NCBI GenBank assembly: GCA_900318265.1
Contig: ONKA01000022.1
Span: forward strand, 1-62,355
Direction: 5' to 3'
Length of the DNA stretch: 62,355 nt
Origin: an uncultured Bacteroidales bacterium
GTDB taxonomy: Bacteria > Bacteroidota > Bacteroidia > Bacteroidales > F082
Part shown: piece after piece, positions 6,535 through 50,905 of the stretch
Numbering within the stretch: position 1 is the stretch's first letter
Layout of the letters: the number at the start of each line of letters is the position of its first letter
The notes under the pieces: model-generated
Seen by the model: the letters and a program-made list of their open reading frames with translations, nothing else
What the model was told of the DNA's origin: nothing
The model's database searches: none
Position numbers and translations under genes: made by a program

Positions 6535-7692
6535 ATGAAACTCGTCACCATCATAGGGGCACGTCCCCAAATCATCAAGGCAGCCGCATTGAGCCGCGCC
6601 ATCCGAAACCATTATTCCGACCAGATACAGGAGGTCATTGTCCACACAGGACAACACTACGACGACAACATGTCGCAAGTCTTCTTCGACGAACTACAAA
6701 TACCCCGCCCCGACTACAACCTCCATGTTGGCTCAGCATCGCACGGCGTGCAGACCGCCCGCATGACCGAAGGCATCGAGGCTTTATTAATAAAAGAGCA
6801 ACCCGATTTCATCGTACTCTATGGCGACACCAACTCAACCTTAGCCGGTGCTGTGGCTGCCGCCAAGATCCATGTGCCTATTGTCCACATCGAGGCGGGA
6901 CTGCGTTCATTCAACAAGAGCATGCCCGAGGAGATCAACCGCATCGTGTGCGACCACTGCTCCACCCTGCTCTTCACACCTACCAAGGCTGGGCTGGAGA
7001 ATCTGAAACGCGAAGGGTTTTCTATCGATGAAGGCGGCCCTTCGACAGGCTCAGGGACCTCTAAACCGACTATCGACAATCCGAAAGTCTACCATTGCGG
7101 CGACATCATGTACGACAACAGCCTGCATTTTGCTGACATCGTGGAAGAGAAGACCGACATCATACAACGTCTGGAACTAAAAAACAAGCCCTTCATCCTA
7201 GCCACCATCCATCGTGACAGCAATACGGACCATCCCGAACGCCTCGGCGCCATCTTTGACGCTTTAATCGAGCTCTCAAAAGAGAATCAAATCGTATTGC
7301 CGTTGCATCCTAGAACGGCCAAGTTGCTGAAGACCAATTTGTGCAACGAAAAGCAGACTTTGGTTTTCAGCAGCGCCAACATCAAGCTCATCCCGCCTGT
7401 CTCCTTCCTCGAGATGATTGCCTTGGAGCGTCATGCCCAACTCGTCATGACCGACTCGGGTGGCGTGCAGAAAGAAGCCTACTTCTTCAAGAAGCCTTGC
7501 ATCATCCTGCGCCCCGAAACAGAATGGGTAGAGATCGTGCAGACCGGTAACGCCATCCTTGCCGATGCTGACGGTAGCCGCATCATGAAGGCTTGGCAAC
7601 ACTTCAAGAATAACCCGCCCACCACTTTCCCCGAGATTTTCGGAGACGGCCATGCGGCAGAGTTCATGCTTGAGCAAATGTTGAAGGCGTAG
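6535..7692 (+). CDS. wecB: UDP-N-acetylglucosamine 2-epimerase (non-hydrolysing), with in-frame repeat insertion
   Basis: Interconverts UDP-GlcNAc and UDP-ManNAc in the cytoplasm, supplying ManNAc-type sugars for surface glycans. Family landmarks: TIIGARPQ at the N-terminus, HTGQHYD, GDTNST, HIEAGLRS, MPEEINR, and DSGGVQKEA near the C-terminus. At 385 residues it is slightly long. The excess is near residues 167-175, where GGPSTGSGT is encoded by a copy of the dispersed palindrome, between NLKREGF and the CGDIMYD motif. That position is a plausible surface loop, so activity is probably kept. No other glycan genes are nearby. Confidence 0.92.
   Translation: MKLVTIIGARPQIIKAAALSRAIRNHYSDQIQEVIVHTGQHYDDNMSQVFFDELQIPRPDYNLHVGSASHGVQTARMTEGIEALLIKEQPDFIVLYGDTNSTLAGAVAAAKIHVPIVHIEAGLRSFNKSMPEEINRIVCDHCSTLLFTPTKAGLENLKREGFSIDEGGPSTGSGTSKPTIDNPKVYHCGDIMYDNSLHFADIVEEKTDIIQRLELKNKPFILATIHRDSNTDHPERLGAIFDALIELSKENQIVLPLHPRTAKLLKTNLCNEKQTLVFSSANIKLIPPVSFLEMIALERHAQLVMTDSGGVQKEAYFFKKPCIILRPETEWVEIVQTGNAILADADGSRIMKAWQHFKNNPPTTFPEIFGDGHAAEFMLEQMLKA
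7033..7059. repeat. GPSTGSG-type palindromic element, copy 2 (in frame in wecB)
   Basis: GGCCCTTCGACAGGCTCAGG continuing GACC, a near-identical copy of the element in tilS. It is read on the coding strand as GG-P-S-T-G-S-G-T without disturbing the frame. Confidence 0.9.
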
Positions 7693-27658: not shown

Positions 27659-29023
27659 TCACGGGCGGCAAAATCTACATTCAAAAACGGTCTTTGTGTC
27701 TTGGCCAATCTTGAATCGGTCATCCATGCGGTAACCAACTGCCCAGAGGATGTCACCATCAGCGGAAACCAAGAGCCAAACATTTTGTTTTTGGTATTCC
27801 GTAAACTTCTGGTCCACAAAGAAATCGCTCAACAGCTTGGAGCCTTTCATGCCCAAAGGGTGGAAACGGTCGGCATGTTGCCAATGGCGCAAAGTCAATG
27901 GAAACTTCAATTTGTCGAAATCCAATTGTGCTACATCGGACGACTTGTCGATGACGAAATCGGGAGTTTTCTCCAAATTGGAAAAACAAAGATGAATTGG
28001 AGAAAGAATCTCCTCCTCCCCTATTTGAATTAAGATTTCATCATCTGTTTTCTCCTTTATTTCAGAGAGTTGCAAGTCTTCTCTACCGATTACTACGCAA
28101 TGTGTAGGCGAACAGTATTGGTTTCCAATGCCCGTTCCGATGGCTTCGTGGATGAAATGGCACTGGTCGGTGTTGAAACCATATTGGCGTAGCCATTCAA
28201 AAAGCAATTGGAAAGTAAAATCCAAGGTCCCTGAGCCTGTCGAAGGGCCGCCAGCACTAGGTGAAAGTACAGAATAAGGCAACCGCTGAATCTCACCATC
28301 TCGTTCCACAATCTGCGCCAGCTTCTCTTTCAATAACGCCCTATAAAGCTCATTTTCAGCAGAAAGATGTTCCAAAGACTTATACAGACCTTGTCGTGCC
28401 TTTGGTTGCAGTTCGTCGAAAACGGGTAATAGTTGGTTGCGGATTCTGTTGCGCAGATATACCGACTCCACATTGGTATGGTCCTCCCGCCAAACGATAT
28501 GATTTTCAACAGCATACTTTCGGATTTGCTCTCGTGAAGCCCACAGCAATGGACGGATGATAACCCCGTTTTGTGGCTTCATGCCTTTCAGTCCGTTGAG
28601 GCCTGCACCGCGCAATAGGTTGATGAAAAAAGTCTCGGCTTGGTCGTCGGCATGGTGGGCTACAGCGATTTTGTCATAACCCAACTGCTGCCTCAACTGC
28701 TCAAACCAGCCATAGCGCAGATCTCGGGCAGCCATCTCAATGGAAATGCCATATTTTGCAGCATATTTCTCGGTTTCAAAATGCTTCACATAGCACTGTA
28801 TCCCACGCTTTTCCGCAAACTTGCGTACAAACCAATCGTCACCATCCGACTCATTGCCGCGCAAATGAAAATTGCAGTGTGCCGCGACAAATTCCACCTT
28901 CGATTTCAGCAACAAATCCGCCAAAACCATGGAATCAATGCCGCCACTGAGGGCGAGAATGAGCTTGTCGCCCTCGGCAATGAGGTTATACTTATTAATA
29001 TATTGCTGAAATTCCCGGACCAT
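27659..29023 (-). CDS. tilS: tRNA(Ile)-lysidine synthase, with in-frame repeat insertion
   Basis: Converts C34 of the tRNA(Ile) CAU anticodon to lysidine using ATP. 454 residues from an ATG two bases after the upstream stop. The PP-loop is LSGGIDSMV near residue 27, followed by HCNFHLRG and AHHADDQAETFF, all TilS marks, then TilS substrate-binding and C-terminal domains. Residues 258-266 are GGPSTGSGT, encoded by a copy of the dispersed palindrome inserted between PYSVLSPSA and LDFTFQLL. TilS is normally essential, so the enzyme must tolerate this linker. Confidence 0.93.
   Translation of the reverse strand: MVREFQQYINKYNLIAEGDKLILALSGGIDSMVLADLLLKSKVEFVAAHCNFHLRGNESDGDDWFVRKFAEKRGIQCYVKHFETEKYAAKYGISIEMAARDLRYGWFEQLRQQLGYDKIAVAHHADDQAETFFINLLRGAGLNGLKGMKPQNGVIIRPLLWASREQIRKYAVENHIVWREDHTNVESVYLRNRIRNQLLPVFDELQPKARQGLYKSLEHLSAENELYRALLKEKLAQIVERDGEIQRLPYSVLSPSAGGPSTGSGTLDFTFQLLFEWLRQYGFNTDQCHFIHEAIGTGIGNQYCSPTHCVVIGREDLQLSEIKEKTDDEILIQIGEEEILSPIHLCFSNLEKTPDFVIDKSSDVAQLDFDKLKFPLTLRHWQHADRFHPLGMKGSKLLSDFFVDQKFTEYQKQNVWLLVSADGDILWAVGYRMDDRFKIGQDTKTVFECRFCRP
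28225..28252. repeat. GPSTGSG-type palindromic element, copy 3 (in frame in tilS)
   Basis: Same sequence as the wecB copy when read on the tilS coding strand, in the same reading frame, again giving GGPSTGSGT. Confidence 0.9.
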
Positions 29024-29025
29024 AT

Positions 29026-30495
29026 TCAATGCCTTACCACAAATTTCTCGATGCTTTGACCGTCTACTTGAACGAAATACAACCCTACAGGATAATGACT
29101 TGTTTCAATCTTTACATGCTGGTTTTCGGCAATAAAACTATCCATCAATTGTCCCATGGCATTATAAACCCGAATCACACTTGAGCCTTCTACAAAAAGA
29201 CTTACAAAGGCATCAGCCGGATTGGGGGAAAGACTGACATTCTGCTCGTTAGATTCATCAACACCATCATAGCACAGATGTTCTTCAATTCCAATGGCTT
29301 CGTAAGCATCAATGACGGACTGTAAATCAGTAAAACTGAATTGATACTCGAACGGATAATCGCTATGGGTGTAAACTACGGAATGGTCAGGGGCTATAAG
29401 TAAAAACTCTGGGTAACCCATAATATGATACTGTGCGGCTATCTCCCTTCCCCCTCTATATCCACTAATAATTGGGAACTTCACATCAAACTCCTCACAC
29501 CATTGCATACACAAGCTAACACCGTCATTGGGATCCACACCAATATAAAAAATATCTTCCTCATTACAGCCGAAGCGATAATAGCTTTCTACAATATTCG
29601 GCTCTTGGATACGGCATCCACTACATGAGTAATAGAAAAAATCAATCAAAACGTATTGTCCTCGGTCAAGAATGTCAAAAAGATGGATTTCATCACCTTG
29701 GCAATCTATCCCAGTAAAGTCAAGCGCTGTAGGTGGCACACTCACTAAGTCGGAAGCACATTCCGAACCATCAATGCAATGTGAAACAACGAAATAGTCA
29801 CCGCCATAACGAGGAGAAAAGTCTATCAAGCAGGTTGTGTCATGAACATCCATTAGAAGATAATCTATGGTATCTGCAAGTGGCTCAAATCTCCGATTAT
29901 AAACATGATAATACAATGCTTCGTCGACATTTGTCCAAGACAGCCTTAGTTCAGTATCGCCTAAATCAGCTCTCAGATTAGTCGGTGCCTTACATTCACC
30001 AAAATTACAATCGGCGGGCATTATGCCAAGGCTATCAAAAACACCATACATATTAGTGTAAGTAATTGATTCCCTGTAGATCTCGTGATTAGGATTAATG
30101 AGAAGATAACGAGGTATTTCCATACAATCCCGATACAAGTTGAAAAACTGTTGGGCACCTCCGCTGCTAGTCACCAAAGGTGATTCCACACCTTGATCGA
30201 CGAGCCATGAAAGGCCGTATTCATCATCAATCGATGTCCAAACCAACATCACGAACATCTCGCGTCCATTACAGCCATAACGATGATAGACTTCCTTGAG
30301 TCGAGTGTCATCTATATAATAAGGTGCTTCACAAAACTCCACTAATACATACTGGCCTCCATCAAGCAATTCAAACAGATTGTATGCTACACCATAACAA
30401 TCGGTAAAAGTATAATCCTCAACTTCGGGCGGGCACTCGGCCTTCAATGACCAACCCAGCGCAAGAAACGCCAAAACAAACAATACTTTTTTCAT
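29026..30495 (-). CDS. T9SS-secreted protein with two thioredoxin-like domains
   Basis: 489 residues with a signal peptide (MKKVLFVLAFLALGWSLKA). Two TlpA/thioredoxin-like domains (about 21-160 and 255-400) flank a fibronectin III-like piece (about 168-250). The first domain has only one Cys at the active-site position (EFC55EAPYY). The second has an intact C291-S-G-C294. The C-terminus, from LSPNPADAFVSLFVEG to KFVVRH, is a T9SS sorting domain. The likely role is an exported disulfide-related or surface protein. It is followed directly by tilS. Confidence 0.8.
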   Translation of the reverse strand: MKKVLFVLAFLALGWSLKAECPPEVEDYTFTDCYGVAYNLFELLDGGQYVLVEFCEAPYYIDDTRLKEVYHRYGCNGREMFVMLVWTSIDDEYGLSWLVDQGVESPLVTSSGGAQQFFNLYRDCMEIPRYLLINPNHEIYRESITYTNMYGVFDSLGIMPADCNFGECKAPTNLRADLGDTELRLSWTNVDEALYYHVYNRRFEPLADTIDYLLMDVHDTTCLIDFSPRYGGDYFVVSHCIDGSECASDLVSVPPTALDFTGIDCQGDEIHLFDILDRGQYVLIDFFYYSCSGCRIQEPNIVESYYRFGCNEEDIFYIGVDPNDGVSLCMQWCEEFDVKFPIISGYRGGREIAAQYHIMGYPEFLLIAPDHSVVYTHSDYPFEYQFSFTDLQSVIDAYEAIGIEEHLCYDGVDESNEQNVSLSPNPADAFVSLFVEGSSVIRVYNAMGQLMDSFIAENQHVKIETSHYPVGLYFVQVDGQSIEKFVVRH

Positions 30496-33426: not shown

Positions 33427-33455
33427 AGTTTTTAAGGTCGGCCCTTCTATCGGTC

Positions 33456-33480
33456 GGCCCTTCGACGGGCTCAGGGGCCT
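33456..33480. repeat. GPSTGSG-type palindromic element, copy 4 (3' of korB)
   Basis: GGCCCTTCGACGGGCTCAGG continuing GGCC, ending four bases from the korB stop codon. A truncated half copy (GGTCGGCCCTTCTATC) precedes it at 33437-33452. Confidence 0.85.
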
Positions 33481-50490: not shown

Positions 50491-50496
50491 GTTAAT

Positions 50497-50905
50497 TAAC
50501 GACCCAGACGAATAAGCGGGATTCTGTTCCCCTTGCGGGGCGACTGTCATTTCTCTAGACCTGCGGTCGCCCGCAGGCTCAAGCGCCCTACCCTGAGACA
50601 CGGACGAGCAGCCCTCTTGAAGCCCGAAAGCTTCGTTGTCTCTATACTTGGACTTGCAGCCCATAAGGTTTACCTCATCGGAATGTCGCCACCCGATGCG
50701 TGAGCTCTTACCTCGCGTTTTCACCCTTACCCTTCGACCCTTCGACCCTTCGACAAGCTCAGGGCTCAGGGCGTAGGGCGGTATGTTTCTGTGGCACTTG
50801 CTGTTGCCCTTGCGGGCACCTTCCTGTTAAGAAGTATGGTGCTCTGTGCTGTCCCGACTTTCCTCGCGCCGGCTTTCCCGGCCCGCGACAGTCTGCCTGA
50901 ATCGC
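50497..50905 (-). ncRNA. rnpB: RNase P RNA, class A
   Basis: The catalytic RNA that matures the 5' ends of tRNAs. On the minus strand the 5' part has GAGGAAAGTCGGGACAGCAC (the P4 5' strand; positions 50846-50865). The middle has AAACATACCGCC...GGTAAGGGTGAAA and GAGGTAAGAGCTCAC. The 3' part has ACAGAATCCCGCTTAT (the P4 partner, near 50510-50526). These match the conserved core in order. A promoter box lies just upstream and a hairpin terminator just downstream. The P9 region between ACCGCC and GGTAAGGG is enlarged by a copy of the dispersed palindrome with extra tandem units. End points are estimates. Confidence 0.93.
50731..50770. repeat. GPSTGSG-type palindromic element, copy 5 (inside RNase P RNA), expanded
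   Basis: The core CCCTTCGACAAGCTCAGGG is at 50746-50764. On one side CCCTTCGA is repeated in tandem (three copies in all); on the other CTCAGGG is duplicated. The whole can fold as one stem-loop in place of helix P9. Confidence 0.85.

Follow-up and report, generated by a model that had tools for sequence, protein, structure and literature searches.

A short hairpin repeat of about 24-25 bp, present in high copy in the genome of this uncultured Bacteroidales bacterium, is probably a REP-like, non-autonomous element of the mobile type, whose intragenic copies appear to have been filtered by purifying selection toward polar peptides in permissive loops. The window, by which I mean the whole 62,355-nt stretch of DNA that was analysed (contig 9 of a 2.98 Mb genome in 50 contigs that is 89% complete), contains the full pattern five times when up to 3 mismatches are allowed, compared to none in 100 dinucleotide shuffles. 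Two of these matches lie inside conserved protein genes: wecB for a non-hydrolysing UDP-GlcNAc 2-epimerase (6535-7692, + strand; TIGR00236, 291.6 bits with a cut-off of 210.15) and tilS for the tRNA(Ile)-lysidine synthetase (27659-29029, - strand; TIGR02432 and TIGR02433, both above cut-off). The copy in wecB (7033-7059, + strand, with the 24-nt unit at 7036-7059) and the copy in tilS (28225-28252, - strand, where relatives carry an opposite-strand element or none) are identical over 7035-7059 and 28226-28250, both reading CGGCCCTTCGACAGGCTCAGGGACC, and each adds the peptide GGPSTGSGT, at residue 167 of WecB and residue 260 of TilS. The initial annotation had picked out these two insertions, and they are indeed present as it described; the window holds three further copies that it did not list, namely an intergenic pattern match with the loop TTCGACGGGCTCA (2530-2554, - strand), a second intergenic copy that occurs in different versions in three syntenic relatives (33455-33479, + strand), and a nested element (50735-50775, + strand, with its core match at 50743-50767) inside the gene for the class A RNase P RNA (50496-50904, - strand; RF00010, 245.1 bits).

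Across the genome, CCCTTCGACARGCTCAGGG is matched 130 times with no more than 2 mismatches (60 times on the forward strand and 70 on the reverse), and the reversed-pattern control gave 0. For a closer description of the anatomy, copies of the loop TTCGACRRGCTCA were read from three data sets: 149 from fetched stretches of this genome (rather than from the entire genome), 135 from the relative G033 and 111 from other loci whose GC content does not exceed 60%, giving 395 copies of which 391 are distinct, since the last two sets have one genome in common and hence four duplicates, none of them intragenic. The unit can be written as GG-NNN-TTCGACRRGCTCA-N'N'N'-A-CC, and among the 393 of the 395 rows with sufficient flank (the 4 duplicates included) the three inner stem pairs -1/+1, -2/+2 and -3/+3 are formed in 384, 380 and 381 copies, where shuffles reached at most 345, 284 and 317. 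Whole pairs are swapped in this stem, with G-C replacing C-G at the second pair in 61 copies, and the outer pair -4/+5, formed in 359 copies (shuffle maximum 338), spans a bulged A on the 3' side, so that the palindromic arms first proposed survive as a covarying stem and not as a perfect palindrome. The flank consensus over the 393 copies is C-GG ahead of the inner stem and ACC-T behind it, and the constancy of the loop is partly by construction because the loop was the search key. Single units of 24-25 nt fold no better than their shuffles (z of 0.13, -0.45 and 0.46), and the argument for a hairpin is for this reason one of covariation. The element is found singly, as inverted pairs and within the loop of another copy; 77 of the 149 copies in this genome belong to close pairs, and 33 of the 39 pairs of neighbours less than 100 bp apart are in opposite orientation.

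The mobile-type character is seen on comparing filled and empty sites between relatives, and such differences were found at the WecB site, in the RNase P RNA and for a 24-bp nest. Matches to WecB were obtained in 48 of 60 genomes, and in the 30 loci that were fetched, this genome's included, the site carries an insert in 11 and none in 19. The inserts themselves vary, encoding GGPSTGSGT, GGPSTPSTGSGTEGSGT, GVSTLRQAQGSTT, GVSTSSTTPSSGT and others, and in L131 a version at this same site has the stem CGT/ACG instead of CCC/GGG. For TilS, again across 30 loci with this one included and three from outside the genus, PSTGSG occurs in two (L151, which is the locus analysed here, and L152), PEPVEG or a decayed form of it on the opposite strand in seven (L153-155, L157, L158, L161 and L162), and element-like sequence in both orientations, one of them decayed, in L177; in L168 the reading frame stops shortly past the insertion site, and the remaining loci have no such element there. 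Other sequence sits at this position in L165, L166, L169, L171 and L172, which I take to resemble other interspersed repeats, and the TilS linker looks as if several repeat families had taken one permissive site. It had been proposed to see whether close relatives lack exactly this segment, and many same-genus orthologues of both proteins do lack it, others carrying different versions; unrelated sequence of equal length, the contrary expectation, was not found in relatives at the WecB and TilS sites. In addition, 21 gene sites are represented by two or more genomes or loci, and five of them include a pair without a common outer frame, TilS being a further case: some permissive sites are refilled or replaced.

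A copy outside protein-coding sequence adds to this comparison. In the relative G021, the only one with an RNase P RNA found among the 10 stretches searched, this RNA (L480:12741-13110) is 370 nt long compared to 409 nt here and is otherwise closely similar, with a short hairpin at the position that holds the element in the window, a variable hairpin that is presumably P12. Folded together with the insert, this region of the window forms an extended stem (-28.9 kcal/mol, z -3.1), and the shorter G021 region gives -11.8 kcal/mol.

Nesting provides filled and empty sites on a smaller scale. One nest is a net addition of 24 bp, bounded by TTCGAC and RRGCTCA, when set against relatives with 80-82% identical flanks (L297 compared with L299 and L310, and L298 compared with L302 and the window), and in wecB the same 24-bp nest is carried by L124 and lacking in L123, the bases on either side being in agreement. 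Half-elements around a core were counted in 33 cases, in which the added length is +15 bp in 22, +24 in 4, +18 in 2 and other lengths in 5, some of these last possibly being neighbours instead of nests. Lengths divisible by three make up all 13 of the cases called genic and 18 of the 20 others; as most belong to the single +15 type, they do not count as independent events, and since multiples of three prevail also where no gene was called, the pattern suggests that selection on the reading frame is not the sole source of the lengths and that frame-compatible nest lengths may be intrinsic to the element.

Besides wecB and tilS, the insert-bearing genes whose identity passes curated NCBIfam cut-offs are murB, murD, rfbB and pyrC, and Pfam matches add a gyrB/parE-type protein, an oligopeptide-type ABC ATPase, a prolyl oligopeptidase and a mevalonate diphosphate decarboxylase; a plasmid search with wecB gave no match. 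The WecB insert falls inside an 18-residue gap ahead of a conserved strand in the three PDB alignments shown, and in TilS the insert (residue 260) is located past the N-terminal part that can be aligned to solved structures. In L066, the one copy tested in this way, the element is at residue 481 and a Por_Secre_tail sorting domain begins at 490. A PSTGSG element precedes a YPNP-like C-terminal motif in L041, L065, L066, L071, L220, L258 and L413.

How the copies are read inside genes depends on a coding frame call, for which a home-made hexamer score on both flanks was used, a score that leaves the tilS copy below threshold and hence uncounted, and that may let in natural sequence, as the PFDRLR case at L067 looks to be by eye. 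By this score, 51 of 149 copies in this genome, 38 of 135 in G033 and 27 of 111 at the other loci lie in an open coding frame. Random positions, drawn from the window together with 16 syntenic stretches from relatives, were flagged by the same test in 923 of 1560 cases (59%), with 143-174 in each of the six frames, and the intragenic share of copies in this genome is below that random level. The sequence of the element leaves five of the six frames open, three of them polar: in the 24-nt unit, phase 0 gives PSTGSG (its other strand a stop), phase 2 gives LRQAQG and PEPVEG, and phase 1 gives PFDRLR and LSLSKG. An initial tally of the frames that run through the individual cores (20 PSTGSG, 15 PEPVEG, 14 LRQAQG and 2 PFDRLR, n=51) proved misleading because a +15 nest shifts the frame of the inner copy, and outer elements were counted instead; apparent frame differences at some site pairs, such as L012/L407, L027/L395 and L096/L386, turned out to be nests of one outer element. 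The outer frames PSTGSG, PEPVEG, LRQAQG, LSLSKG and PFDRLR then number 25, 13, 10, 2 and 1 in this genome (n=51), 21, 9, 6, 2 and 0 in G033, and 9, 11, 6, 0 and 1 at the other loci, where PEPVEG exceeds PSTGSG.

To allow for shared descent, the 116 intragenic copies of the three data sets were clustered by flank similarity, which may miss some of it, into 57 gene sites, 40 of them with a single outer frame. These 40 divide into 21 PSTGSG, 8 PEPVEG, 6 LRQAQG, 3 LSLSKG and 2 PFDRLR (chi-square p=7e-6), and the 21 are in excess both of one fifth (p=5e-6) and of one third of the three common frames (p=0.001); when one member was drawn per site, the largest p in 200 draws was 2e-5. The excess of PSTGSG is real, yet it is not the sole frame in use, since the others account for about half of the cases. 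The notion that GPSTGSG is the one tolerated frame thus holds as an excess in the table of intragenic copies and fails as an exclusive rule, for PEPVEG and LRQAQG are common and the rarer frames occur as well. Counting composites once, the frames read in this genome are 17 PSTGSG, 11 PEPVEG, 9 LRQAQG, and 2 and 0 for the two rarer ones (n=39), with no significant excess of PSTGSG over the other two common frames (p=0.075). With such proportions roughly a third of random pairs of intragenic copies would agree in frame, so the agreement of wecB and tilS, from which the initial annotation argued, alone means little. At loci above 60% GC, which lie outside the set of other loci and on which the coding model was untrained, 4 of 19 full-length copies are called intragenic and all 4 are PSTGSG.

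What, then, would produce such a bias? According to the reading that I favor, an enzyme supplied in trans would move the element as a single-stranded hairpin, and insertions that land in genes would then be filtered by purifying selection, the survivors being those that keep the frame free of stops and whose polar peptide, rich in Gly, Ser, Pro and Glu, comes to lie in a linker or a loop at the surface. PSTGSG would survive best, followed by PEPVEG and LRQAQG, with PFDRLR, LSLSKG and the stop frame mostly lost; survival only at permissive loops and linkers would also lead to some sites holding different versions in different relatives, and no host benefit need be assumed. However, LSLSKG and PFDRLR are still found at 5 of the 40 single-frame sites, which speaks against selection, and the insertion mechanism is the main rival to it as the cause of the frame bias. 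A mechanistic origin, in which a target that is itself phased in genes would direct most insertions to codon phases 0 and 2, is unlikely but deserves attention: both depleted frames belong to one phase, read on opposite strands, so that a codon-phase preference would give a similar pattern, the two phase-2 frames are similar in count (8 and 6 of 40) though their peptides differ, and there are weak flank preferences for T at +7 (256 of 393) and G at -8 (187 of 393). Against this, random genic positions have no phase bias, the TilS site uses phase 0 (PSTGSG) and phase 2 (PEPVEG) in different relatives, and base composition alone would, in my judgement, give a far weaker phase preference.

The excess of PSTGSG, together with the L066 copy just ahead of its sorting domain, could also be taken to mean that the inserts are adaptive linkers whose Gly/Ser peptide improves the proteins, but this is improbable when one and the same site has such varied content (PSTGSG, an LRQAQG-containing version, STSSTTPSSG or PEPVEG), many relatives have no insert at all, and the copy in the RNase P RNA codes for no peptide. 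Chance low-complexity sequence, or Gly/Ser loops that evolved independently, would account for the similarity of the peptides at face value only, and it can practically be dismissed as the source given the 130 matches against 0 in the reversed control, the 5 in the window against 0 in shuffles, and the covarying stem. Filtering by selection, the reading preferred here, can be extended, though I consider this rather doubtful, to a mobile hairpin that is frame-safe by its own design, its unit length (24 bp, with nests mostly of 15 or 24 bp) and open polar frames making genic insertion survivable; if this were true, spreading into coding DNA and into genes for structured RNAs would be a strategy specific to the lineage, and old copies would serve as landing pads for new ones.

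The element fits the general description of a REP, a hairpin of 20-40 bp in high copy, by virtue of its 130 copies and covarying stem. In the passages of Di Nocera et al. (2013; PMC3733652) considered here, REPs fall into the GTAG and CGTC super-families and share with this element the hairpin size and high copy number, inverted dimers, compensating stem changes, presence in several phyla and some intragenic copies. The consensus of the 393 copies has no unpaired GTAG at either end, and as C-GG-CCC...GGG-A-CC-T it also lacks the features given there for CGTC REPs, which are a CGTC tag, a stem whose first two positions are A or T, and a CCA tail. The long loop, the bulged A and nesting in the loop are features of the element described here, as is the intragenic frame bias, which is undescribed for REPs in those same passages of PMC3733652.

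Rickettsial palindromic elements (RPEs), to which the initial annotation had likened the repeat, are 105-146 bp long as summarised in the parts of Delihas (2007; PMC2229807) drawn on here, and are reported there to have inserted into the RNase P RNA and the tmRNA of rickettsiae as well. The likeness is one of function, with in-frame copies in conserved protein genes (wecB, tilS, murB, murD, rfbB, pyrC and others) and a copy in RNase P RNA, and it does not extend to size, a unit of about 25 bp in another phylum being set apart by that description of RPEs. The core DNA strings and the peptides FDRLRANG and PEPVEGR are absent from the main texts of the open-access papers searched, and a topical search on Bacteroidales gave nothing relevant among the matches listed; the element family and its strong frame preference are apparently undescribed, although the kind (a REP, or an RPE in frame) is known. 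In-frame mobile palindromes are familiar from Rickettsia and from scattered REP examples in the portions of these two sources used here (PMC2229807, PMC3733652). Now a Bacteroidales-type genus provides dozens of in-frame cases, many relatives in which the site is filled, empty or filled differently, and a frame bias that can be measured, so that the question of neutral passengers filtered by selection becomes directly testable. Where predicted proteins contain peptides such as GPSTGSGT, PEPVEG or LRQAQG, these may be a sign of mobile DNA and not of protein design.

REPINs are paired inverted repeats associated with RAYT transposases. The inverted orientation of most close pairs recalls them, yet only about half of the copies are in close pairs at all, and none of the RAYT-like genes examined is immediately flanked by the element. 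This genome has four Y1 transposase genes, and at least one is present in 34 of the 48 genomes of the genus; in the 47 Y1/HUH loci scanned, which are part of the Y1 matches listed and in 45 of which (L417 and L368 excepted) the Y1 frame was properly identified, the element is immediately beside the gene in none and the nearest TTCGAC core (at most 1 mismatch) is 204 bp away, an element-flanked RAYT possibly having been missed since the genomes are incomplete and only part of the Y1 matches is covered. Hairpins of other sequence lie beside many of the Y1/HUH genes scanned. Alongside the RAYT-like genes of L416, L418-L423, L425-L429 and L119, these are other hairpin families, for instance CAATCTGCGAGACGCAGATTG and GGCCTGCAATCGGCCCGATTGCAGG.

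Copies occur in 37 of 80 genomes (this one and its relatives) and in 5 of 33 genera, ranging within the genus from 0 to 148, and across the Bacteroidota in 54 of 395 genomes and 38 of 171 genera. G450, a genome of the same class, has inverted pairs of the loop TTCGACRRGCTCA, 30 of 31 distinct pairs being 67-70 bp apart; of the 72 copies scanned in it, 0 lie within genes, and it offers no independent test of the frame bias for this reason. The loop and the CCC/GGG inner stem of the G450 pairs are as here; they differ in having GTGACAG-type sequence beside the stem instead of ACC, and outer arms that are largely complementary. In the 15 viewed of the G450 loci (L430-L459 and L469-L479), these outer arms vary between copies while remaining largely complementary within a copy, and the inner ends are of the GGGTGACAG/CTGTCACCC type. 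Furthermore, the exact 25-mer is found, among the matches listed, in Fibrobacter, Treponema, a Lachnospiraceae MAG and Actinobacteria such as Microbacterium and Plantibacter. In L208, L223 and L248 (Planctomonas, Plantibacter and Microbacterium), the same loop and stem are arranged in tandem arrays with a spacing of 32-35 bp.
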